Assembly: GCF_007827275.1 (NCBI RefSeq) | Contig: NZ_VISE01000001.1 | Location: forward strand, 992,001 to 1,056,000 | Direction: 5' to 3' | DNA from: Gillisia sp. Hel_I_86 | GTDB taxonomy: Bacteria > Bacteroidota > Bacteroidia > Flavobacteriales > Flavobacteriaceae | DNA length: 64,000 nucleotides | Shown here: positions 16,332 to 49,953 of the stretch, piece by piece | Layout: each line of letters opens with the position of its first letter | Position numbering within the stretch: the stretch's first letter is position 1 | Notes under the pieces: model-generated | Databases searched by the model: none | The model's input: only the letters and a program-made list of their open reading frames with translations | What the model was told of the DNA's origin: nothing | Program-made: the position numbers and the translations under genes

Positions 16332-16425
16332 GCATTTCAAATAATTACGAGAGGTCGGCAGACAACCACATACGATTTTTATCAATTATTTTATTGATCT
16401 TCAAACAGTTAAAATATTTAGTTTT

Positions 16426-16757: not shown

Positions 16758-18830
16758 ATGAAAAAAATAACAAATGCACTTATTTTATCTGCACTTGCGG
16801 CAACGGTAGTAACCAGCTGTAAAAGTGACGATAAAAAAATGGAAGTTAAAGAAGAATCCCATGGGATCAATTTAGCTTTTATGGATACCACCATGAGCCC
16901 TAAAGAGGATTTCTTTAGATACGTTAACGGAACATGGGCAGATTCTACCGAAATTCCAGACGATCACACCACTTGGGGCAGTTTTAATGAACTAAGAAAA
17001 AACACCGATGAAGATGCGCTTTCTTTATTGGAAAAAGCTTCAAAAGATAAAGACTTAGATGCCAAAAGCGATCAGGCAAAAGCGGTGTTCCTATACGAAA
17101 GTATCATGGATACTGTTGCCAGGAACAAAAAAGGAGTGGAACCTTTAACTCCATATTTAGAGAAAATTGCAGCGATCCAGAATAAGCAAGATCTTCAAGC
17201 ATTTTTAACCGAAATGCAACAATATGGAGGAGCCGGGTTTTTTAGGTTTACCATTCGTGCCGATGCCAAGGACAGCAATGCCAATGCTGCTTACATTTAT
17301 CCTTCTGGCCTAGGATTGCCAGATAGGGATTATTACGTAGAAAATGATGCTAGCTCGAAAGAAACTCGTGAAAAATACAAAAAACATGTGACCAGAATGT
17401 TGCAGTATTTAGGAGATTCTGAAGAAGAAGCTTCTAAAAGTGCTGAAACAATCCTAGCCTTTGAAACTAGTTTGGCTACACCTCAAATGGATAAAGTAGA
17501 TCGTAGAGATGCGAGAAAGACCTACAATCCAATGGCTATAGCTCAACTACAAAAAGAAGTTTCTGCAATCGATTGGAAAAAATATTTCAATGAAATTGGA
17601 GCTTCCAAGGCAGATACCGTAATTGTATCGCAACCAAAATATATGCAAGCTTTACAAAAGACTTTTACTGCAAATAAAGTTGCAGACTGGAAAACTTACT
17701 TGCGTTGGAATTTATTGAACGATGCTGCCTCTGCTTTAAGCATGGAAATAGAGCAAGCCAACTGGGACTTTTACAGCAAAACGCTTCAAGGAGCTAAAGA
17801 ACAACGCGCGCTTAAAGAACGCGCTTTACAAACTGTAAATAGAACTTTGGGGGAAGCTTTGGGAAAACTATATGTTGAGGAGAATTTTCCGCCAGAAGCC
17901 AAGAAAAAAGCCCGAGAGATGATCGCTAACATTATAAAAGCTTACGAAGTAAGAATAGACAAGCTTGCTTGGATGAGCGACAGCACTAAAACAAAAGCTA
18001 AAGAAAAATTAGCCTCTACCACCATTAAAGTTGGATATCCAGATGAGTGGAAAGATTATAGCGAGTTGGAGATCACGTCTCCAAAAGATGATAAAGGGTC
18101 CTACTTCCAGAATATGCTGAATGCAGCTAAATGGAATGTAAAAGAGGATATGGCAAAATTAGGAGAGCCTGTAGATAAAACCGAATGGTTTATGGCACCT
18201 CAAATTGTGAATGCGTATTATAACCCTAGCTACAACGAAATTGTATTTCCTGCTGCCATTTTACAACCCCCTTTCTACGATTACAAAGCAGATGCTGCTG
18301 TAAATTATGGCGGAATTGGAGCGGTAATAGGTCATGAAATTTCTCACGGATTCGACGATAGCGGATCCCGATTCGATGCAGAAGGAAACCTGAACAACTG
18401 GTGGAGCGATAAAGATCTTGAATCTTTCGAAGGCCTGGGCGGGGCTTTGGCTGAACAATACAGTGCTATCGAGGTGCTGGATAGTGTTTACATTAACGGA
18501 AAGTTCACTTTGGGCGAGAACATTGGGGATCTAGGTGGTGTAAATGCCGCTTACGACGGACTTCAATTACATTTAAAAGAACATGGAAATCCTGGTGAAA
18601 TAGACGGCTTTACTCCAGAGCAGCGTTTCTTCCTTTCATGGGCAACCGTTTGGAGAACCAAGATGAGGGATGAAGCTTTAAGAAACAGAATTAAAACCGA
18701 TCCGCATTCTCCTGGAATGTACCGCGCCTATGTGCCTTTACAGAATATCGATGCTTTTTATGAGGCTTTTGATATTACCGAAGGGGACAAAATGTACGTA
18801 AAACCAGAGAACAGGGTAAAGATCTGGTAA
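16758..18830 (+). CDS. pepO: M13-family zinc metallopeptidase (PepO/neprilysin-like), lipoprotein
   Basis: Oligopeptide-degrading zinc protease of the neprilysin family, 690 residues, likely anchored in the envelope: the signal ends in VVTSC with Cys21. Peptidase M13 N-terminal domain about 45-430, then the catalytic domain with HEISH (H526, E527, H530) and the third zinc ligand in ENIGDLGG (about residue 588). NAYYNPSYNEIVFPAAILQPPF is the NAYY substrate-binding motif. The C-terminus KPENRVKIW matches the family's conserved ending. All catalytic residues are present, so it should be active. It is monocistronic, with a terminator at 18851. Confidence 0.95.
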   Translation: MKKITNALILSALAATVVTSCKSDDKKMEVKEESHGINLAFMDTTMSPKEDFFRYVNGTWADSTEIPDDHTTWGSFNELRKNTDEDALSLLEKASKDKDLDAKSDQAKAVFLYESIMDTVARNKKGVEPLTPYLEKIAAIQNKQDLQAFLTEMQQYGGAGFFRFTIRADAKDSNANAAYIYPSGLGLPDRDYYVENDASSKETREKYKKHVTRMLQYLGDSEEEASKSAETILAFETSLATPQMDKVDRRDARKTYNPMAIAQLQKEVSAIDWKKYFNEIGASKADTVIVSQPKYMQALQKTFTANKVADWKTYLRWNLLNDAASALSMEIEQANWDFYSKTLQGAKEQRALKERALQTVNRTLGEALGKLYVEENFPPEAKKKAREMIANIIKAYEVRIDKLAWMSDSTKTKAKEKLASTTIKVGYPDEWKDYSELEITSPKDDKGSYFQNMLNAAKWNVKEDMAKLGEPVDKTEWFMAPQIVNAYYNPSYNEIVFPAAILQPPFYDYKADAAVNYGGIGAVIGHEISHGFDDSGSRFDAEGNLNNWWSDKDLESFEGLGGALAEQYSAIEVLDSVYINGKFTLGENIGDLGGVNAAYDGLQLHLKEHGNPGEIDGFTPEQRFFLSWATVWRTKMRDEALRNRIKTDPHSPGMYRAYVPLQNIDAFYEAFDITEGDKMYVKPENRVKIW

Positions 18831-18880: not shown

Positions 18881-18994
18881 TTTGGCTGCGTCCGCCAAAA
18901 AGGCGGTCGGGCTATTCGCTAAAGTCCCAATTGCAAAAGGCAATCGGGAGCTACCGCTGCTATCCCTCGCAGGGTGTATAAGAGCATCAAAGTT

Positions 18995-19144
18995 GTCGTT
19001 TCGAGCATAGTCGGGAAATCTCATGATGTAGAAAAACATTCGATTTATTGTCCTTTCGAAGGAGCTTTTCGCGACTGAGAAATCCCTTCTTCCCAGCAAA
19101 AATCGATTTCAACGAGATCTCTCCCGGGGGTCCAGATGACAAAC
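18995..19144. repeat. 150-bp intergenic repeat, copy 1 of a direct pair
   Basis: Starts GTCGTTTCGAGC and ends GGTCCAGATGACAAAC. Near-identical to 19171-19320; internal landmarks are GATGTAGAAAAACATTC, GGAGCTTTTCGCGACTGAG and CTTCTTCCCAGCAAAAAT. The GTC...GAC-type ends are inverted, as in the other elements of the window. Short open frames here are repeat-derived and not genes. Confidence 0.85.
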
Positions 19145-19170
19145 CCTGAAAATCATGCTCAACAAACAAT

Positions 19171-19320
19171 GTCATTTCGAGCGGAGACGGGAAATCTCAC
19201 GATGTAGAAAAACATTCTCTCTACTGTCATTTCGAAGGAGCTTTTCGCGACTGAGAAATCCCTTCTTCCCAGCAAAAATTGATTTCATTGAGATCTCTCC
19301 CGCTGGTCGAGATGACAAAC
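19171..19320. repeat. 150-bp intergenic repeat, copy 2 of a direct pair
   Basis: Starts GTCATTTCGAGC and ends GGTCGAGATGACAAAC. Same length and order as copy 1, 176 bases downstream, with a 26-base spacer between them. Most differences are single substitutions. Confidence 0.85.
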
Positions 19321-33757: not shown

Positions 33758-36700
33758 ATGAGTAAGTCTACTATTGCCCAAACCTTTGCAAAGTCTCTGC
33801 AACAGCAGAAACTTGGGGATTTTATTGCCTCTTCTGAAAAAAACAATTCGAAAGTTCAATTAAAAGGCCTTGTAGGATCGGCATTATCCTATGTGATCTC
33901 GAATGCTTTTGAAGAAGCTGAGAGTCCGTTTTTGCTGATTTTCAACGATAAGGAGGAAGCTGCCTATTATTTGAACGATCTGGAACAATTAATGGGTGAT
34001 AAAAATGTACTTTTTTATCCCGGGAGTTATCGTAGGCCTTACGAATTGGAAGAGACCGACAATGCCAATGTGCTTTTGCGGGCGGAAGTTTTAAACAGGA
34101 TCAATTCCAGAAAGAAACCGGCACTTATTGTTACCTATCCAGATGCGTTGTTCGAAAAAGTGGTGACCAGAAAAGAGCTCGAAAAAAGCACATTGAAGAT
34201 CTCTGTCAACGATCAGCTTTCTTTGGATTTTGTGAATGAAGTGCTATTTGAATATAAGTTCAAAAGAGTGGATTTTGTGACAGAACCGGGAGAGTTTTCG
34301 GTGAGAGGTGGAATTATAGATGTGTTTTCTTTCAGTAACGACGAACCATATAGAATAGAATTTTTTGGAGATGAGGTAGATAGCATTCGGAGTTTCGATG
34401 TGGAAACGCAACTCTCTACAGATAAGGTGAAGAAGATATCGGTGATGCCCAATGTGGAGCATAAGCGCCTTGATGAGGTGCGGGAAAGCTTCTTGAAATA
34501 TGTTTCATCTAAAACAGTGGTACTTATCAAAAATGCTGAGTTACTGGCTGGAGCTATGGACAAGCTTTTCCAAAAGGCGGAAGATGCCTTTGGCAAGCTT
34601 TCAGAAGAAATAAAGCATAATACCCCAGAAGAATTATTTTGCACTTCAGGTTTGCTTACAACTCAATTAGAAGAATTTAAGGTGGTGGACTTAGGAACGT
34701 CCAATTTACGTCATCCTGTTCCGACAGCTATCGGAATTGTTTCAGGATCCAATCAGAAAAAGACCCTGAATCAAGTTCAGGGTGACGCTTCAATAATAGA
34801 ATTCCATACCAAGCCGCAACCTTCGTTCAATAAACAATTCGAATTATTGATCGATAATTTAATTGAAAATCACGAGGAAGGGTATACCAATTATATTTTT
34901 TGTGTAAGCGAGCAACAGGCAAAGCGTTTCCACGATATTTTTGAAGATCAGGATCGGGAAGTGAAATATCACACAGTGGTGCTTTCTATGTATCAAGGCT
35001 TTATAGATCCAGATTCTAAGATGGTTTGCTATACAGATCATCAAATCTTTGAGCGCTACCATAAATTCCATTTAAAGAATGGTTATGCCAAAAAACAGGC
35101 CATCACTATAAAAGAATTGACCAATTTAGAAGTAGGGGATTATGTAACCCATATCGATCACGGAATTGGAAAGTTTGGCGGACTTCAAAAAATAGATGTT
35201 GAAGGAAAAATGCAGGAAGCCATCAAATTGTTTTATGGAGAAAGGGATATTTTATACCTCAGTATTCATTCGCTTCATAAAATTTCCAAATTCAATGGAA
35301 AAGATGGGAAACCACCAAAAATATATAAATTAGGTAGTAATGCCTGGAAAAGTTTAAAGCAGAAAACAAAAGCCAGGGTAAAACATATCGCGTATAATTT
35401 AATTGAATTGTATGCGAAAAGACGAACTCAGGAAGGATTTCAATATGGGCCAGACTCTTATTTGCAATTGGAGCTGGAAGCTTCATTTTTATATGAAGAC
35501 ACACCAGATCAAAGTACAGCAACTGCAGATGTGAAGGAAGACATGGAAAGCCCAAGGCCAATGGATAGATTGGTTTGTGGCGATGTAGGTTTTGGAAAAA
35601 CAGAAGTGGCTATTCGTGCGGCTTTTAAAGCGGTAGATAATGGAAAGCAAGTGGCTATTTTAGTGCCGACTACCATTTTGGCATTTCAGCATCATAAAAC
35701 TTTTACCGAACGATTAAAGGATTTCCCCGTAACGGTAGATTATTTAAACAGGTTTAGAACGGCAAAAGAACGTAGGGAAACTCTGGAAGATCTTGAAAAA
35801 GGGAAAGTCGATATTATTATAGGAACGCATCAATTAGTGAACAAAGCCGTAAAATTTAAAGATTTGGGCTTATTGATCGTAGATGAAGAACAAAAATTTG
35901 GAGTAGCAGTAAAGGATAAACTGAAAACCATCAAAGAGAATGTTGATACGCTTACTTTAACTGCAACGCCTATTCCGCGTACGCTTCAATTTAGTTTGAT
36001 GGCGGCGAGGGATCTTTCCACTATCACCACTCCGCCGCCCAACAGATATCCTATCGAGACCAATGTAATTCGGTTTGGAGAAGAGACTATTCGAGATGCG
36101 GTTACTTATGAAATTCAGCGTGGAGGGCAGGTGTTCTTTATTCATAATAGGATTGAAAATATCAAGGAAGTTGCCGGGATGATCCAGCGCTTGGTGCCGG
36201 ATGCCAAAGTTGGTGTGGGCCATGGGCAAATGGAAGGGAAAAAACTCGAGAAACTGATGTTGAGTTTTATGAACGGGGAGTTCGATGTACTTGTTTCTAC
36301 TACGATTGTTGAAAGCGGATTGGATGTGACCAATGCCAATACCATTTTTATCAATAACGCGAATAACTTCGGGTTATCAGATCTGCACCAGATGAGGGGA
36401 CGGGTTGGGCGAAGCAATAAAAAGGCGTTTTGTTACTTTATTACCCCGCCATATTCTGCAATGACCGATGACGCTAGAAAAAGGATCACAGCATTAGAGC
36501 AATTCTCGGAGTTGGGAAGCGGGATCAACATTGCGATGAAAGATCTTGAAATTCGCGGTGCAGGAGATCTTTTGGGAGGAGAGCAAAGCGGATTTATGAA
36601 TGAAATCGGCTTTGATACCTATCAGAAAATATTGAATGAAGCTATTGAAGAATTGAAAGAAAATGAATTCAAGGACCTTTATGAGGATACCGAGGATGTA

Positions 36701-37210
36701 GATGATAAGGTGTACGTGAAAGATGCACAAATCGATACCGACTTTGAACTGTTGTTCCCGGATGATTATATCAATAACATTACAGAACGACTGAACCTTT
36801 ATACGCAATTAAATAATATTAAATCTGAAGAAGAGCTTCTTAAGTTTGAAGCTGATCTGGAAGACCGATTTGGAGAATTGCCAACACAGGCGATAGATCT
36901 TTTAAACAGTGTGCGCATCAAATGGATCGCAGCTCACATTGGTTTGGAGAAAGTGATTATGAAACATGGAAAATTCATTGGGTATTTCCTTTCAGATCAG
37001 CAATCCAGATTCTATCAGACACCAATTTTTACCAAGGTATTACAATATGTGCAAACACATTCGCATTCCTGCACCATGAAAGAAAAACAAACCAGGGCAG
37101 GATTGCGATTATTATTAACTTTTGAAAAAATAACCTCTATAGATCGGGCTTTAAAAGTTTTACAGCCCTTGGATTTTAGGGTGAAAGTGGAGGAAGAGGC
37201 GAAAGTATAA
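33758..37210 (+). CDS. mfd: Transcription-repair coupling factor Mfd
   Basis: Removes stalled RNA polymerase from lesions and recruits UvrA. 1150 residues. UvrB-like N-terminal module (about 1-300), RNA-polymerase-interacting CarD-like domain (about 455-555; GDYVTHIDHGIGKFGGLQK), RecG-like translocase with Walker A CGDVGFGKTE (about 605-614), DEEQ (about 709), TLTATPIPRTL and QMRGRVGRS, and the C-terminal TRCF domain. Oddity: residues 318-343 (34710-34786) are encoded by an intergenic palindromic repeat element inserted in frame between the UvrB-like and RID modules; the frame stays open and all motifs are intact, so the protein is probably functional. Confidence 0.96.
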   Translation: MSKSTIAQTFAKSLQQQKLGDFIASSEKNNSKVQLKGLVGSALSYVISNAFEEAESPFLLIFNDKEEAAYYLNDLEQLMGDKNVLFYPGSYRRPYELEETDNANVLLRAEVLNRINSRKKPALIVTYPDALFEKVVTRKELEKSTLKISVNDQLSLDFVNEVLFEYKFKRVDFVTEPGEFSVRGGIIDVFSFSNDEPYRIEFFGDEVDSIRSFDVETQLSTDKVKKISVMPNVEHKRLDEVRESFLKYVSSKTVVLIKNAELLAGAMDKLFQKAEDAFGKLSEEIKHNTPEELFCTSGLLTTQLEEFKVVDLGTSNLRHPVPTAIGIVSGSNQKKTLNQVQGDASIIEFHTKPQPSFNKQFELLIDNLIENHEEGYTNYIFCVSEQQAKRFHDIFEDQDREVKYHTVVLSMYQGFIDPDSKMVCYTDHQIFERYHKFHLKNGYAKKQAITIKELTNLEVGDYVTHIDHGIGKFGGLQKIDVEGKMQEAIKLFYGERDILYLSIHSLHKISKFNGKDGKPPKIYKLGSNAWKSLKQKTKARVKHIAYNLIELYAKRRTQEGFQYGPDSYLQLELEASFLYEDTPDQSTATADVKEDMESPRPMDRLVCGDVGFGKTEVAIRAAFKAVDNGKQVAILVPTTILAFQHHKTFTERLKDFPVTVDYLNRFRTAKERRETLEDLEKGKVDIIIGTHQLVNKAVKFKDLGLLIVDEEQKFGVAVKDKLKTIKENVDTLTLTATPIPRTLQFSLMAARDLSTITTPPPNRYPIETNVIRFGEETIRDAVTYEIQRGGQVFFIHNRIENIKEVAGMIQRLVPDAKVGVGHGQMEGKKLEKLMLSFMNGEFDVLVSTTIVESGLDVTNANTIFINNANNFGLSDLHQMRGRVGRSNKKAFCYFITPPYSAMTDDARKRITALEQFSELGSGINIAMKDLEIRGAGDLLGGEQSGFMNEIGFDTYQKILNEAIEELKENEFKDLYEDTEDVDDKVYVKDAQIDTDFELLFPDDYINNITERLNLYTQLNNIKSEEELLKFEADLEDRFGELPTQAIDLLNSVRIKWIAAHIGLEKVIMKHGKFIGYFLSDQQSRFYQTPIFTKVLQYVQTHSHSCTMKEKQTRAGLRLLLTFEKITSIDRALKVLQPLDFRVKVEEEAKV
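34710..34786 (+). repeat. Palindromic repeat element translated inside mfd
   Basis: 77-bp element with inverted ends GTCATCCTG and CAGGGTGAC. The right part is identical for 28 bases (34760-34787) to intergenic 48907-48934. The left part (CTGTTCCGA...GGAATTGTTTCA) matches intergenic 43585 onward and the reverse complement of 44730-44765. It adds about 26 residues to Mfd, including SGSNQKKTLNQVQGD. Confidence 0.9.
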
Positions 37211-37310
37211 CTTCTCGACTACGCTCGAAGTAATACAGTAAAAGTGAAACTGTAATAGACAAAAATGTCAGGTCGAGATCCGTGATAAAAAAATTATCCA
37301 GCGTAGGAAA

Positions 37311-37433
37311 TTGACGTGTTTTTTATATAAGCTGATGGGATGCTGAAACAAGTTCAGCATGACGACAATTCCGCATCGTCACCCTGAACTGGTTTCAGGG
37401 TCTTGGATTCACAAATAAATAAAAACACGTCAA
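37311..37433. repeat. 123-bp inverted-repeat element, copy 1
   Basis: Ends TTGACGTGTTTTTTAT and ATAAAAACACGTCAA form an imperfect terminal inverted repeat. Inside are two palindromes, GCTGAAACAAGTTCAGC and CCCTGAACTGGTTTCAGGG. The reverse complement occurs at 43676-43798 with the same length and few differences; similarity continues about 50 bp leftward (AATTATCCAGCGTAGGAAA). The whole gap 37211-37470 is repeat DNA and has no gene. Confidence 0.88.
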
Positions 37434-37470
37434 TGGTAGCGGAGTCGAAACCTATCCGGTTTGAGACCTA

Positions 37471-37938: not shown

Positions 37939-38029
37939 GTCATTCTGTCCCGACCGTTCGGGGGTTTCAGAATCTCATTACAATGAAAATCAATACAATA
38001 TTAAGACCCTGAAATAAATTCAGGGTGAC
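37939..38029. repeat. 91-bp palindromic repeat element
   Basis: Ends GTCATTCTG and CAGGGTGAC. The left half has a CCCGACCGTTCGGG hairpin and TTTCAGAATCTC; the right half has GACCCTGAAATAAATTCAGGG. It has the same plan as 63574-63678 and the mfd element. Gap 37831-38092 has no gene. Confidence 0.85.
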
Positions 38030-43555: not shown

Positions 43556-43871
43556 AAAGAGGCTGTCTCAAAAGCACCTTTTTCGTCAAGCTGTTCCGAT
43601 GATAGCTATGGGAATTGTTTCAACTTCCAATTGGTGTGAATTTTCAATTAGTTAAAATCTTGAAATAAATTACCATTGACGGATTTTTATTTATTTGTGA
43701 ATCCAAGACCCTGAAACCAGTCCAGGGTGACGATGCGGAATTGTCGTCATGCTGAACTTGTTTCAGCATCCCATCAGCTTATATGAAAAATACGTTAATT
43801 CCCTACGCTAGATATTTTTTTTATTACGGGTTCCAGGATGACGCATTTCTGACCTTTGAGACAACCTCTTT
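43556..43871. repeat. 316-bp outer inverted-repeat (MITE-like) element
   Basis: Terminal arms AAAGAGGCTGTCTCAAAAG (43556-43574) and CTTTGAGACAACCTCTTT (43854-43871), one mismatch and one single-base indel when folded. Inside lie a decayed palindrome (43585 on, CTGTTCCGA...GGAATTGTTTC), the 123-bp element 43676-43798 and an ATTCCCTACGCTAGA tail. It has no open frame of note. It fills the gap between acs and ssb. Confidence 0.8.
43676..43798. repeat. 123-bp inverted-repeat element, copy 2 (reverse complement of 37311-37433)
   Basis: TTGACGGATTTTTATTTATT at the left and GAAAAATACGTTAA at the right. Internal CCCTGAAACCAGTCCAGGG and GCTGAACTTGTTTCAGC palindromes and GATGCGGAATTGTCGTCATG match copy 1 in inverted orientation. 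Confidence 0.88.
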
Positions 43872-44220: not shown

Positions 44221-44910
44221 AACTATAGAATTTATTGCAGTTGAAAATCATTCGTTCATTTCAACAAGACAAATGTATATAAGGGCTTTTGGCGTATTCG
44301 GTTGGGAAAGGTTTGTTTTCGTTTACTTACGTTTGTAAGCGTTTGTTGTCGGTTAATATATTGATATACATTGATCTACCCGTTATCTAAATTATTTGAA
44401 TAAATATATATATCCGTTTTTTGTCCTAATAGTTCTTTCGTCACTCTGAGGCCCGTGAAAAAAATTTTATCTAGCGGAGGAAATTGACGGTTAAAAATTA
44501 CCTCGAATGTAGCCTGTTGAAGGATCTGAGAGCAGATCCTTCATAGGTCGGGAAGACAATAAAAAAGGATTGTCATTCTGAAGGAAACGTAGTGGACTGA
44601 AGAATCTCAATAAAACAGAATCAATGTAACCAGAGATCCCTCCTAGCGTCGGGATGACAAAGTATTCAAAATCCATCAATGGTAATTTATTTCAGGGTCT
44701 CAATATTGCATTGATTTACATTGAAATGAGATTCTGAAACAATTCCGATATCGGAACAGAATGACATCCTTTTCCAGTTTAGGATACTTTACGAACAAAC
44801 AATAAATAACATGCATGGCATAGATCTTTAATCTATCGAGATTTAGTGACTTAAATTTCCTATATTTAAGTTCCCTACCTCTTTATTATATCAATCTAAT
44901 TCCACTAAAA
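44221..44910. repeat. Repeat-filled intergenic region
   Basis: 690 bases without a gene. It contains a 10-bp perfect hairpin TGAAGGATCT/AGATCCTTCA (44518-44543), an 87-bp GTCATTCTG...GGGATGAC element (44573-44659), a fragment of the TTGACG family (44462-44493), and a TTTCAGGGTCTC...CAGAATGAC element ending at 44765. A 62-residue open frame on the minus strand is repeat-derived. The last 120 bases probably hold the promoter of the M16 protease gene. Confidence 0.75.
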
Positions 44911-47694
44911 ATGAAAAAAATCCTAATTTTCTTACTGGCTGCAATCTGTTATGTACAGCCATACCAAGCACAAAATGTTGAATTCAATATAGATGAAATC
45001 AATATAGACTATGAACGATTTGTATTGCCTAACGGATTGACCTTATTGGTACATGAAGACCATAAAGCACCTATTGTCGCCGTAAACGTTTGGTATCATG
45101 TAGGTTCTAAAAATGAAAAAAAAGGGAAGAGCGGATTTGCCCATCTCTTTGAACACCTAATGTTTAACGGAAGCGAGAATTACGACGATGATTATTTTCA
45201 AGTAATAGAGCGGATTGGGGGAACAGATGTTAATGGAACAACAAATTCCGACAGGACAAATTATTTTCAAAATGTGCCAGTTTCAGCCTTAGATCAAGTT
45301 CTCTTTCTGGAATCGGATAGAATGGGGCATTTATTGGGAGTTGTAGATCAAGAATTATTGGATGAACAAAGGGGTGTTGTTCAAAATGAAAAACGGCAAG
45401 GGGAGAATCAGCCTTATGGCCAACAACGAAACTATCTAACCAAAGCGATGTACCCGGAAGGCCACCCATATTCATGGACGGTAATTGGCGAAATGGAAGA
45501 CCTCAACGCAGCGTCCCTAGAGGATGTGCAGGAATGGTTTAAATCTTATTATGGTGCGGCAAATGCTGTTATTGCAATTGCCGGAGATGTGAATCCTGAA
45601 GAGATTCATAAAAAAGTGCTAGCATATTTTGGGGATATCCCTGCAGGCCAAACGATAGGAAGGCAAGAGGTGAATATTCCAGTGCACAATGGAGATACCT
45701 ATCAGGTATACGAGGACAGGGTTCCGGAAACCAGAGTGCTATTTGCTTGGAACACTCCTCCTTTTGGACATAAAGAAGATCTTCATTTCGATTTAATTAG
45801 CGCCATACTTAGTAGTGGGAAGAACTCAAGGTTATATAAAAAACTGGTCTATGAAGATCAAATAGTCAGTAACGTATTTGCATATCAGGCTTCAAGTGAA
45901 ATCGCGAGTACTTTTGTGAGTTTTGCCAATGTGAAACCAGGAGAGGATGCCAAGGAAGTGGAGAAAAAACTATTGGCTGAAATTGATAAATTTATTGAAA
46001 ACGGCCCTACAGAAGCGGAATTAAAACGAGTAAAAGCTGAATATTTTGCCAGATTTATAAAGGGGTTGGAACGTATAGGCGGTTTTGGAGGAGTATCAGA
46101 TATATTGGCTTCAAATGAGACCTATCATGAAGATGCTTCCTACTATAAGAAACAATTAAAATTCATAGAGGAAGCCACTGCTGCCGATTTGAAAGCTACT
46201 GCCAAGAAATGGTTGACAAGGGGCAAACATACCTTAATAGCAAATCCTTTTCCTGAATATACCGTGACCGAGTCTAAGATAGACAGATCTAAATTGCCGC
46301 CTTTAGGAACTCCTAAAACCGCAAAATTTCCAGAAGTGCAGCGGGCTCAATTATCAAATGGAATGAATATCGTTCTTGCAAAGAGAGAAGGTGTTTCCAC
46401 AATTGTAATGGATCTAATGTTTGATGCCGGATACAAAACAGATTATCTAGCAATTCCGGGAACCGCGTCCTTAGCGATGAATTTGATGGATGAGGGAACA
46501 AAAGACATGAACTCCCTACAAATAAATGAAAAACTACAGTTGCTGGGAGCAAATTTATATTCAAATTCCGATCTGGATATTTCCAGAGTTGGTATGAACA
46601 CTTTAAAGCAAAGTCTGGATGAAAGTTTAAACTTATTTGCAGATGTGATCATGAACCCGGATTTTCCGCAGAAAGAGTTCGACCGACTTAAGAGCGAACA
46701 AATGAATGATATAAAAAGGGAAAAGTCGCAACCTGTTGCAATGGCATTACGAGTAATCAATAAATACTTGTATGGAGAAGATCATCCTTACAGTAATCCT
46801 GCAACAGGAACCGGATATGAGGACACGGTAGAAAAATTAACCCGGGCAGATGTTCAGAAATTTTATGAGACTTGGATAAAACCAAATAATGCTACATTAG
46901 TGATCACTGGGGATGTAGAAATGAGCGAGTTAAAGTCCAAACTAGAAAAGTCCTTAGGTAAGATGAAGAAGGGCGATGTGCCTACAATTACCTATGCCAA
47001 GCCTAAAACTGGCGCGAAGAATACCCTTTATTTAATGAACAGGCCAGAATCTCAACAGTCTGTAATTATTGGGAGTTACCTTACTGAAAAATATGGAGAT
47101 GTTTCTGAGGTTGCGCTAGAGCAAATGGTAAATGTGCTTGGGGGAGAATTTACTTCCAGAATAAACATGAACTTAAGAGAAGATAAACATTGGGCATATG
47201 GTGCTTTTGGATTTGTTATGGATGCCAAGCAGGAACGCCCTTTTGTGGTATATGCTCCCGTACAAACCGATAAAACATCAGAGTCTATTTTAGAATTAAG
47301 AAAGGAGCTTTCAGAGTTTGTGTCAACTAGACCAGTTACCCAAGCAGAATTGGATAAGGTGAAAAACAATCAAATTTTGGCACTTCCGGGACAATGGGAA
47401 ACCAATAGCGCAGTTAATAATTCGCTGTATAATCTTGTTAAATATGATTTACCAGATGATTATTATCAGAGTTATGACTCCAATATTAGAAACCTTTCTT
47501 TAAAGGATATTGAAGAAGTTAGCACAAAAATGGTAAAACCTAATGAAGTGAACTGGTTTATGGTAGGAGATCGAGCTAAAATCGCAGATAAATTAGACCA
47601 ACTTGGTTTTGATTCCATCATTGAGATTGATGCCGATGGAAACATGCTTACTCCGCCTATAAAAACCCCCGAAAAAGATGAGGTTAAAAATTAA
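44911..47694 (+). CDS. M16-family zinc peptidase, two-domain (pitrilysin-like), periplasmic
   Basis: 927 residues with a Sec signal (ending near YQAQN). The first M16 half is catalytic: inverted zinc motif H78-L-F-E81-H82 in FAHLFEHLMFNG and the third ligand in GVVQNEKRQ (about E160). The second half (from about 470, VQRAQLSNGMNIVLAKREGV) is the inactive partner with no HxxEH. Together they form the clamshell that degrades peptides in the periplasm. Length is that of fused M16 proteins of Bacteroidota. It is a single gene, followed by a strong terminator. Confidence 0.92.
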   Translation: MKKILIFLLAAICYVQPYQAQNVEFNIDEINIDYERFVLPNGLTLLVHEDHKAPIVAVNVWYHVGSKNEKKGKSGFAHLFEHLMFNGSENYDDDYFQVIERIGGTDVNGTTNSDRTNYFQNVPVSALDQVLFLESDRMGHLLGVVDQELLDEQRGVVQNEKRQGENQPYGQQRNYLTKAMYPEGHPYSWTVIGEMEDLNAASLEDVQEWFKSYYGAANAVIAIAGDVNPEEIHKKVLAYFGDIPAGQTIGRQEVNIPVHNGDTYQVYEDRVPETRVLFAWNTPPFGHKEDLHFDLISAILSSGKNSRLYKKLVYEDQIVSNVFAYQASSEIASTFVSFANVKPGEDAKEVEKKLLAEIDKFIENGPTEAELKRVKAEYFARFIKGLERIGGFGGVSDILASNETYHEDASYYKKQLKFIEEATAADLKATAKKWLTRGKHTLIANPFPEYTVTESKIDRSKLPPLGTPKTAKFPEVQRAQLSNGMNIVLAKREGVSTIVMDLMFDAGYKTDYLAIPGTASLAMNLMDEGTKDMNSLQINEKLQLLGANLYSNSDLDISRVGMNTLKQSLDESLNLFADVIMNPDFPQKEFDRLKSEQMNDIKREKSQPVAMALRVINKYLYGEDHPYSNPATGTGYEDTVEKLTRADVQKFYETWIKPNNATLVITGDVEMSELKSKLEKSLGKMKKGDVPTITYAKPKTGAKNTLYLMNRPESQQSVIIGSYLTEKYGDVSEVALEQMVNVLGGEFTSRINMNLREDKHWAYGAFGFVMDAKQERPFVVYAPVQTDKTSESILELRKELSEFVSTRPVTQAELDKVKNNQILALPGQWETNSAVNNSLYNLVKYDLPDDYYQSYDSNIRNLSLKDIEEVSTKMVKPNEVNWFMVGDRAKIADKLDQLGFDSIIEIDADGNMLTPPIKTPEKDEVKN

Positions 47695-47747
47695 GGTTGA
47701 ACGTATTGAAGTTGACTTAAATTAAGCCTCATGCACAGTATAAAATC

Positions 47748-47792
47748 AAGCAAAGCTATTACTGAAACAAGGAAATAGCTTTGCTTTTTTAT
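47748..47792 (+). terminator. Terminator of the M16 protease gene
   Basis: 13-bp perfect stem AAGCAAAGCTATT (47748-47760) / AATAGCTTTGCTT (47774-47786) with a run of T after it. Confidence 0.88.
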
Positions 47793-47859
47793 TGTAAATA
47801 AAATGCAACTAATTGATGGGTTCCTATAATTCCATTGAATTGGCTATATTCATGTTTTT

Positions 47860-48958
47860 GTCATGCTGAACTTGTTTCAGCATCTCATGTATGTTAAATT
47901 AGATCCTGAATCCAGTTCAGGGTGACGAATGGCGAGCTGTTTTGAGACCCTTCGACAAGCTCAGTCTGAGAGCCTTTTTTTGCCATTCCGAACATAGTGA
48001 AGAATCTCTAAAGAGCAGCAATAATATATAATAAAAGAGATCCTTCCTTCGTCAGGATGACAAAAGGGGATATTATTGTCCCTTCGAGCGGAGTCGAGAA
48101 GTCGTTCTGTCCCGATAATCATGAAGATCGAATTGTCTGAATATAGTGAAGAATCTCACTGAAGCAGCAATGCGTTATAAAATAGTTCTCGACTTTAGCT
48201 TGTATTGAGCGAAGTCGAAATGCCCGAAATGACGCTTTTTTTTAAAATATTCGTGAATTCGTGCAGTAAAAAGCACTTCGATCCAATAGAGATCACTCCT
48301 AGCGTCGGGATGATATAGGAATAAAATTGTCCTCCTAATTGTTTGTATCTAAGGCCTCTCGCCATGCTGAACTTGTTTCAGCATCTCATGTATGTTAAAT
48401 TAGACCCTGAATCAAGTTGAGGGTGACGAATGGCGAGCTGTTTTGAGACCCTTCGACAAGCTCAGTCTGAGAGCCTTTTTTTGCCATTCCGAACATAGTG
48501 AAGAATCTCTAAGGAGCAGCAATAATATATAATAAAAGAGATTCTTCCTTCGTCAGGATGACAAAAGGGGGTATAATTGTCCCTTCGAGCGGAGTCGAGA
48601 AGTCGTTCTGTCCCGATAATCATGAAGATCGAAATGTGTTTCTAAACATAGTGAAGAATCTCACTGAAGCAGTAATGCGTTATAAAAATAGTTCTCGACT
48701 TTAGCCTGTATTGAGCGAAGTCGAAATGCCCGAAATGACACTTTTTTTTAAAATATTCGTGAATTCGTGCAGTAAAAATCACTTCGATCCAATAGAGATC
48801 CCTCCTAGCGTCGGGATGATATAGGAATAAAATTGTCATCCCATGTTTGTATCGAAGGTCTCTCGTCATGCTGAACTTGTTTCAGCATCTCATGTATGTT
48901 AAATTAAGACCCTGAATCAAGTTCAGGGTGACGAATGGTAAGCTGCCTTGAGATCCTT
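47860..48958. repeat. Tandem array of a 502-bp non-coding unit (about 2.2 copies)
   Basis: Copies begin at 47860, 48361 and 48865 with G(T/C)CATGCTGAACTTGTTTC; the third is cut after about 95 bases. Each full unit holds the same series of palindromes: GCTGAACTTGTTTCAGC, CCCTGAATC...TTCAGGGTGACG, CTTCGACAAGCTCAG, GAACATAGTGAAGAATCTC, CTTCGTCAGGATGAC, CTTCGAGCGGAGTCGAGAAG, TCGACTTTAGC...GAGCGAAGTCGA and CCTAGCGTCGGGATGA. Small open frames are not conserved in frame. With flanks, the gap 47695-49377 (1.7 kb) has no gene. Confidence 0.9.
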
Positions 48959-49059
48959 TGACAAGCTACCATTGACGGATTCCTAAAATATATCCATTTT
49001 CCCATGCTTTATGTTTTTATCAAAGGTTTTAGGATGACCAACAATAAACAGGATCATTG

Positions 49060-49120
49060 GCCACGAATGCACGAATTATTGGTTTTAACAATCCTGGAAA
49101 ATTATTCGTGCATTCGTGGC
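49060..49120. repeat. 21-bp perfect inverted repeat
   Basis: GCCACGAATGCACGAATTATT (49060-49080) and its exact complement (49100-49120) around a 19-base centre. The CGTGAATTCGTGCAGT sequence in the tandem units is related. It would form a very stable hairpin; no T run follows. Confidence 0.85.
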
Positions 49121-49205
49121 GATATCCAGAGAACCAACAAAACGCCGAACAATGCTGAACTGGTCTCAAAATCTTAAATACCTGGAAATAAATTTCCTTT
49201 AATAG

Positions 49206-49270
49206 AATTTTAAACACTTCAATTTCCTACGCTGGATAATTTTTTTATCCCGGGTCTCAGGGATGACGAG
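49206..49270. repeat. Fragment of the TTGACG-type repeat
   Basis: CTTCAATTTCCTACGCTGGA then TAATTTTTTTATCCCGGGTC and CAGGGATGACGAG, matching the right flank of 43798 and the complement of the left flank of 37311. Confidence 0.75.
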
Positions 49271-49377
49271 ATAGAGGGTCAGGTGAATTGCTGGACAAAT
49301 AAGGAATATGTATTAAATGCAATTTTTATATTGGAAGATCTTTAATTATCTTCAAAAAAAATAAATTACCACGATCA

Positions 49378-49953
49378 ATGCAACCAAAACTTATAGAAGA
49401 ACAAAACTTCAAAAAAATAAATTTTAGGAAAGAAAAGCTTCCAAAAGCCGATTATGAATTATGCACTTTTGAGGCCTGTGATTTTTCCAATTCGGATCTT
49501 TCAAAGCTTCGATTTGCAGAATGCGGTTTTAAAGATTGTAACCTTAGCTCTGCAAATATTGTTGGAACTTCATTTCAAGAAGTGAGATTTGAGGATTGTA
49601 AAATGTTCGGGCTCCATTTCGATAAATGTGATCCTTTTGGTTTTGAAATTAGTTTGGAAAATTGCCAGTTAAATCATACTTCCTTTTACAAGATGAAATT
49701 AAATACTTTCAAAGTAATTAACTCCAAACTAAAAGATGTGGATTTTACCGAAGCCAATTTATCTGGGGTACAATTTGAAAAATGTGATCTTCAGAGCGCG
49801 ATCTTTGAAAGATCTATTCTCGAAAAATGCGATTTTAGGACTGCCTCCAATTATTCTATAGATCCTGAGAATAATAAAATGAAGGGAGCCAAATTTTCAT
49901 TGAAGGGTGTGGTGGGACTTTTAGAGAAATACAAAATTACAATAGGGAAATAA
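49378..49953 (+). CDS. Pentapeptide-repeat protein (Qnr/McbG-like architecture)
   Basis: 191 residues of A(D/N)LxF-type pentapeptide repeats forming a right-handed quadrilateral beta-helix: CDFSNSDLSKLRFAECGFKD, CNLSSANIVGTSFQEVRFED, DFTEANLSGVQFEKCDLQSA, IFERSILEKCDFRTA. The cysteine-rich CxF pattern and a bulge at about 75-95 (KMFGLHFDKCDPFGFEISLE) resemble Qnr-type DNA-mimic proteins, which protect gyrase; that role is possible but unproven. It is the first gene after the long repeat array and is followed 10 bases later by phzF on the same strand. Confidence 0.85.
   Translation: MQPKLIEEQNFKKINFRKEKLPKADYELCTFEACDFSNSDLSKLRFAECGFKDCNLSSANIVGTSFQEVRFEDCKMFGLHFDKCDPFGFEISLENCQLNHTSFYKMKLNTFKVINSKLKDVDFTEANLSGVQFEKCDLQSAIFERSILEKCDFRTASNYSIDPENNKMKGAKFSLKGVVGLLEKYKITIGK

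Follow-up and report, generated by a model that had tools for sequence, protein, structure and literature searches.

The window, a stretch of 64,000 nucleotides from the Gillisia sp. Hel_I_86 genome (a single contig of 4.245 Mb), carries an intact gene for the transcription-repair coupling factor Mfd. Within the reading frame of this gene lies a pair of palindromic repeats belonging to a family, here family A, that also occurs in intergenic DNA of the window.

33758..37210, + strand: mfd, transcription-repair coupling factor, 1150 aa (intact frame, Pfam domains)
34709..34787, + strand: in-frame head-to-head dimer of CGTC-tagged palindromic repeats (RHPVPTAIGIVSGSNQKKTLNQVQGD), mfd codons 318-343
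34709..34751, + strand: first mfd unit, 39-nt long type with a nested palindrome in its loop (6 of 85 units have this length)
34760..34787, - strand: second mfd unit, common 24-nt type in opposite orientation (28-nt identity to 48906-48933)
37340..37401, unstranded: intergenic pair of family-A units (sequence match)
38006..38029, - strand: intergenic family-A unit (sequence match)
43601..43631, + strand: intergenic relative of the first mfd unit (84% over 31 nt)
43708..43769, unstranded: intergenic pair of family-A units (sequence match)
44730..44750, - strand: intergenic reverse-complement relative of the first mfd unit (95% over 21 nt)
47860..47926, unstranded: intergenic pair of units within the 47.8-49.0 kb repeat block (sequence match)
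48361..48429, unstranded: intergenic pair of family-A units (sequence match; left unit also by consensus pattern)
48865..48933, unstranded: intergenic pair of units, the right one equal to the mfd unit over 28 nt (sequence match)

The mfd element is 79 nt long, with CGTC at its start and GACG at its end, and makes up codons 318-343 plus one base. The original prediction, made from the sequence, described these codons as an element with inverted ends whose left part resembles intergenic DNA, and both points are borne out (84% to 43601-43631 over 31 nt and 95% to the complement of 44730-44750 over 21 nt). The predicted identity of the right part to intergenic DNA over 28 nt also holds, after a correction of one base in the coordinates (34760-34787 equals 48906-48933). 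The element has a predicted fold of -29 kcal/mol against a shuffle mean of -16.7 (z -3.8), and none of 200 shuffles folded equally well. A known RNA family was ruled out, with no Rfam match at the gathering threshold across the whole window.

Mfd itself contains the domains UvrB_inter (residues 146-233), CarD_TRCF_RID (457-512), DEAD, Helicase_C and TRCF, all above the Pfam cut-off, and its ATPase motif columns are present in an alignment of 44 sequences. These matches confirm that the frame stays open and that the downstream motifs are intact; a pseudogene is thus ruled out. The insert does lie between the UvrB-like and CarD-like domains, as proposed, and the term linker is right only loosely because the Pfam domains are ~85 and ~115 residues away. 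In an AlphaFold fragment model of moderate quality (mean pLDDT 68.5), residues 318-340 fall below pLDDT 50 and form a coil between blocks of ~84-97, and a poor full-length model (mean pLDDT 57.8) agrees on low order at 318-340. The top Foldseek matches are Mfd chains, but their rmsd is 6-17, and sequence profiles map onto the solved E. coli Mfd only in the stretches flanking the insert region. In the protein, the element would presumably appear as 26 residues, most of them hydrophilic.

The palindromic repeat family and its nearest counterparts

A 111-nt query of the mfd site gave at least 50 matches in the source genome, itself included, and the best of the other places had an E value of 4.6e-13 (40 of 167 first-look candidates scored). 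Across 38 fetched stretches and the window there were 69 merged family-A places, two of which lie in an open reading frame of at least 100 aa. These two are mfd and a doubtful frame of 126 aa. The consensus tntCGTCAccCTGAACTtGTTTCAGggTCTcat, derived from 76 common family-A units, has a CGTC tag, an 8-bp stem (ACCCTGAA / TTCAGGGT), a 5-nt loop (CTTGT) and an unpaired CTC tail; the search pattern demanded a GTCA-like start, and the tested part of the CGTC tag is the C and its flanks. The first stem pair of these units is A-T and the second position is mixed. In the 38 stretches and the window, a sample selected for resemblance to the mfd dimer, unit pairs are head-to-head in 18 cases and tail-to-tail in 16.

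Repeats are also clustered at a larger scale in the window. The intergenic block at 47694-49378 includes a palindrome mosaic of ~500 nt (47862-48967), present in two copies that are 97% alike and a third, partial copy, with start-to-start distances of 501 and ~505 nt. Elsewhere, two clusters of intergenic repeats (37280-37438 and 43671-43829) form an inverted pair of 159 nt with 94% identity.

Precedents for protein-embedded repeats exist in Rickettsia and in some REP-rich genomes. The mfd case is like other protein-embedded palindromic elements in that it lies in a conserved gene, keeps an open frame and is absent from close orthologues. The GTAG-tagged REPs and REPINs mobilised by RAYTs are likewise short, dispersed inverted pairs that are mostly extragenic; the GTAG tag, however, is absent from the family-A consensus. 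The source genome has 13 Y1_Tnp (IS200/RAYT-like) places, four of them with in-frame stops, and a family-A unit was found near one of the eight loci examined, at a distance of ~650 nt. A RAYT-driven REPIN was rejected on the missing tag and this sparse association at the eight loci. Four of the Y1_Tnp loci are 98.6-100% alike across ~590 nt.

The closest known counterpart is the class of CGTC-tagged REPs, reported in Bacteroidetes and without a dedicated transposase (Di Nocera, De Gregorio, Rocco 2013, PMC3733652). Family A shares with this class the CGTC tag, the 8-bp stem, the 5-nt loop and head-to-head dimers. The common units fit the stem of 8-9 bp and loop of 4-5 nt given there, whereas the first mfd unit is longer. 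Two further differences can be named. Most tails, not all, fit CCA in the published class, but the tail is CTC in family A; and head-to-head dimers predominate there and tail-to-tail pairs are rare, in contrast to 16 against 18 head-to-head in our sampled stretches. The first two stem pairs are A-T in the published class; in family A the first is A-T and the second position varies.

The same source assigns RPE-4 and RPE-6, which lie inside genes of R. conorii, to the CGTC-tagged repeats. Like the mfd element, RPE-4 and RPE-6 are reported to sit in open frames inside unrelated proteins, though in a different phylum. The likeness to the protein-embedded repeats of Rickettsia, first suggested as a resemblance, is consequently more than analogy, given that the window repeat has most features of the class. 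Intragenic REPs are described there in several species, many of them in replication and repair genes, and it is suggested that linkers may tolerate REPs, with a mutator role as speculation; the same-site case named is Xanthomonas recB (PMC3733652). The word mfd is absent from the main text of PMC3733652. The literature searched, mostly titles and the beginnings of abstracts, yielded no paper on repeats in mfd, none containing any of four repeat peptides and none on several repeat families reusing one Mfd linker across a family.

Mfd was compared across 16 genomes of the same genus (the source genome included) and 80 named relatives, with the exception of one same-genus genome from which no Mfd was obtained (G014) and two in which it is broken (G011, G013). 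The Gillisia clade of the Mfd tree has 11 rows, and the other 10 (five distinct genomes, each present twice) lack the repeat. In G013, another close genome, which is 66% complete and stands outside the Mfd tree, the repeat NLRHPELVSGSNTDKNLK runs up to the end of a contig. The sister species Gillisia marina, 95% identical, has NLRKKSSAIETSEVIEF in place of NLRHPVPTAIGIVSGSNQKKTLNQVQGDASIIEF in the window, and over the whole Mfd segment the window has 16 residues more than G. marina. A gap of about 26 residues had been expected in the relatives. The repeat is indeed missing from the other 10 rows of the clade, but the net gain is 16 residues rather than 26, as G. marina has other residues at the site. 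Seventy matches to the repeat family were found in the genome of G. marina, whose mfd has no insert, so the absence is not explained by a lack of the repeat. Relatives that lack the repeat family and share the same 26 residues were not seen. Mfd matches with internal stops in two same-genus genomes (G011, G012) reflect broken genes or assembly errors.

The presence of the repeat in mfd and its absence from close relatives support the prediction that the family has moved into coding DNA, and we infer that the direction of change was a gain. Aligned to G. marina at the DNA level, the linker of the window is replaced or scrambled, with no clean opening, and its junctions resemble those of a replacement or of an insertion accompanied by loss.

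Repeats in the Mfd linker of other Flavobacteriaceae

The repeat in mfd proved to be part of a wider phenomenon than was claimed for the window, with unrelated repeats at the same linker in other genera. A family-A dimer is found in the mfd of Salegentibacter lacus, S. holothuriorum and S. salarius, and five Salinimicrobium rows contain the left or right half of the family-A element. Family B, unrelated to family A, occurs in the mfd linker of Algibacter, Aestuariivivens and others (VIA..TKQS..SQAPRNDE), family C in that of Confluentibacter and others (VMLSAVETS), and a fourth, G+C-rich family in that of an Aequorivita MAG. Matches in the carriers' own genomes (E up to 0.1, mfd counted where matching) number 6, 2, 19, 3 and 2 for family B and 11, 15, 8 and 4 for family C; in genome G017 the sole second family match is weak (E 0.083).

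Repeats were found in the mfd linker of 18 of the 80 named relatives, which are the best Mfd matches chosen irrespective of the linker. The survey of the family matched 385 of 397 genomes and gave coordinates for 310, the count excluding 74 lower-scoring genomes, nearly all of at most 2.5 Mb. In it, 33 of the 78 long linkers read (those with a span of at least 918 nt or a split match, picked by eye, with the incomplete matches of G331 and G338 left out) contain a repeat, in 31 genera as counted by hand from group codes. Relative to all genomes with coordinates, this is at least 33 of 310, a lower bound because the shorter linkers were mostly unread. At least five positive genomes are common to the named set and the survey set.

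A fuzzy scan with 11 repeat motifs scored 54 of 169 mfd linkers, against one of 1469 chunks of the same size from the rest of mfd and one of 3453 chunks of other genes (every second chunk of 6905); the thresholds were fixed before the counts were seen, while the motifs themselves were designed after the linkers had been read, and several positive linkers lie near threshold (for example L176, L189, L204, L217 and L232). The B and C motifs came partly from mfd inserts and were then checked for copies elsewhere, and H, H2, G and Q were drawn up in part from background knowledge. By eye, the one scoring chunk of another gene is not repeat-like. A BLAST comparison with intergenic DNA at 1e-5 gave matches for 22 of 169 linkers, three of 1469 mfd control chunks and 53 of 6905 chunks of other genes. 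The three mfd controls all match one stretch, and nearly all of the 53, by eye, match one or a few stretches of truncated genes that had been counted as intergenic; one of the 53, with seven matches, looks like a palindromic repeat.

On an Mfd tree of 93 rows built without the linker, the family labels change 16 times, and at least 13 times when forks of support below 95 are collapsed (A 6, B 3, C 3, G 1). A FastTree phylogeny of 196 short segments gave 39 label changes, with 56 of the 196 rows labelled; it was built on short rows with unusable linker lengths, and we therefore rely on the 93-row tree. Salegentibacter agarivorans, which has no insert, forms an unresolved fork with three species carrying one. 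Parsimony on the Mfd tree cannot separate gain from loss, and a single old insertion passed down within a clade may account for family B. Some mfd inserts consist of a single unit, and several look decayed.

Reading frames and other host proteins

As read from the consensus, the common family-A unit has two open forward frames and one open reverse frame. All 12 rows (10 distinct) of family-A plus units in mfd linkers use the hydrophilic frame RHPELVSGS, within five errors, and none of them uses the equally open hydrophobic frame; for three rows, the window included, the frame was judged by eye owing to fuzzy ends. The GTC phase predominates in families B and C; the entry mechanism therefore does not fix the phase. 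It is most likely that an insertion persists only where it falls in a disordered linker and is read in an open, hydrophilic frame.

A search for repeat peptides in further proteins had also been proposed. In other genomes PurL, MnmE and LeuS are among the hosts; for the source genome itself, mfd and the doubtful 126-aa frame are the sole cases among the 69 places. The family-A peptide gave 197 matches in 29 genomes, and among the best of these, which were listed, at least 10 fall in frames of 300 aa or more: six in mfd, two in MnmE, one in an HsdS-like protein and one in a nucleotide-sugar dehydrogenase. The HsdS-like host resembles a type I restriction specificity subunit through an NCBIfam match below cut-off, and such a subunit probably carries a family-A repeat. 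The MnmE insert falls within the GTPase domain, at a place where a solved homologue has two residues against 24. The family-A search recovered the mfd insert in six of 18 genomes known to have it, and with 12 missed it is an undercount; because the genomes were also picked largely for their mfd inserts, other hosts are undercounted, those of the source genome included.

In 15 genomes chosen for family B in mfd, the family-B peptide gave 28 matches, 20 of them in frames of at least 300 aa. These comprise mfd (12), PurL (5), LeuS (1) and, identified by eye, a HemW-like enzyme and a membrane protein. The PurL insert is at one site in all five cases, between the synthase and PurQ-like glutaminase parts (PurL identity by NCBIfam for one, by likeness for the other four). 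In genome G147, a small protein, TrpF-like by eye, has a repeat-like stretch in another frame (RHEEERNDVV...).

Origin of the linker inserts

We favour, at a probability of roughly three in four, the reading that a CGTC-repeat dimer entered a disordered, hypervariable linker of mfd, and that this linker is an open landing site on which a post-insertion filter selects. The dimer, from a mainly intergenic family, would have entered after the window lineage split from Gillisia marina, replacing or displacing several mfd codons and remaining in frame, and Mfd probably tolerates the resulting peptide without benefiting from it. Elsewhere in the Flavobacteriaceae, other repeat families would have entered the same linker independently, decayed and stayed as linker peptide. 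Repeats may enter genes often, the observed cases being those that passed the filter, which would require a length divisible by three, no stop, a hydrophilic soluble peptide and a loop unimportant for folding. The inserts in PurL and MnmE could be explained by the same filter. The recurrence at Mfd is higher than a pure loop-tolerance model obviously predicts.

A broader and tentative extension, which we consider possible though somewhat doubtful, is that the palindromic repeats of the Flavobacteriaceae serve as a permanent source of new linker sequence. The linkers of Mfd, PurL and MnmE would then be largely successive decayed insertions, and much of the linker diversity between genera would be fossil repeat. 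Protein-embedded REPs were already known; the novelty lies in one linker being occupied time and again, by several repeat families, across a bacterial family. The mostly environmental Flavobacteriaceae provide a dense natural experiment, with one linker, several unrelated families, about thirty genera and insert-free close relatives, in which the rate at which a non-coding repeat becomes protein, the frames that survive and the speed of decay can be measured. Whether repair proteins are favoured, a question raised in 2013 (PMC3733652), also becomes measurable.

Such favouring underlies the first alternative, in which the repair role of Mfd makes it a favoured target, or one under selection, and the peptides alter its autoinhibition or activity, and hence mutability. 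REPs have been described in uvrA, uvrB, uvrD, polymerase I, recBCD and dnaE2, which in many species are the sole REP-bearing coding sequences (PMC3733652), and mfd is the only convincing host in our sample of the source genome. The inserts, however, are unrelated between genera and lie where the predicted order is very low, and the non-repair proteins PurL, MnmE, LeuS and a nucleotide-sugar dehydrogenase are hosts as well, probably together with the HsdS-like subunit. We regard this explanation as unlikely.

Slightly less probable again is a single ancient insertion in mfd, later overwritten from each genome's own repeats. The identical position of all inserts, the presence of B and C in one part of the tree, the decayed-looking copies and a possible loss in S. 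agarivorans are consistent with it. Yet Salegentibacter sp. 24, S. maritimus and S. agarivorans share a plain short linker (YLEPQ-like), and the Christiangramia, Aquimarina and Mesonia rows examined have short linkers with no motif match. Moreover, the sequences of families A, B, C and G are unlike one another, and overwriting by homology is therefore not expected.

It is also conceivable, at a still lower and indeed very small probability, that the element acts as nucleic acid, an mfd mRNA hairpin that slows the ribosome between domains or controls decay, with the peptide incidental. The interdomain position and the strong folds predicted for the window (z -3.8) and for the Salegentibacter lacus insert (z -7.8) would suit such a role, whereas folding 30 nt of the Confluentibacter insert gave nothing stable (z +1.3), and there are also inserts that are single units or look decayed. 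Chance or compositional resemblance is refuted to near certainty by the 28 identical bases, the at least 50 genome matches and the control rates in the motif scan.

A second palindrome family (GTCACCTCGAGCGGAGTCGAGAGGT-like) is intergenic at 16420, 40917, 41036, 41456, 48072, 48573 and 61551, and motifs related to it score in the mfd linkers of other genera. Beside the ORF at 16758-18830 there is a tandem duplication of 151 nt, 89% alike (18994-19144 and 19170-19320).
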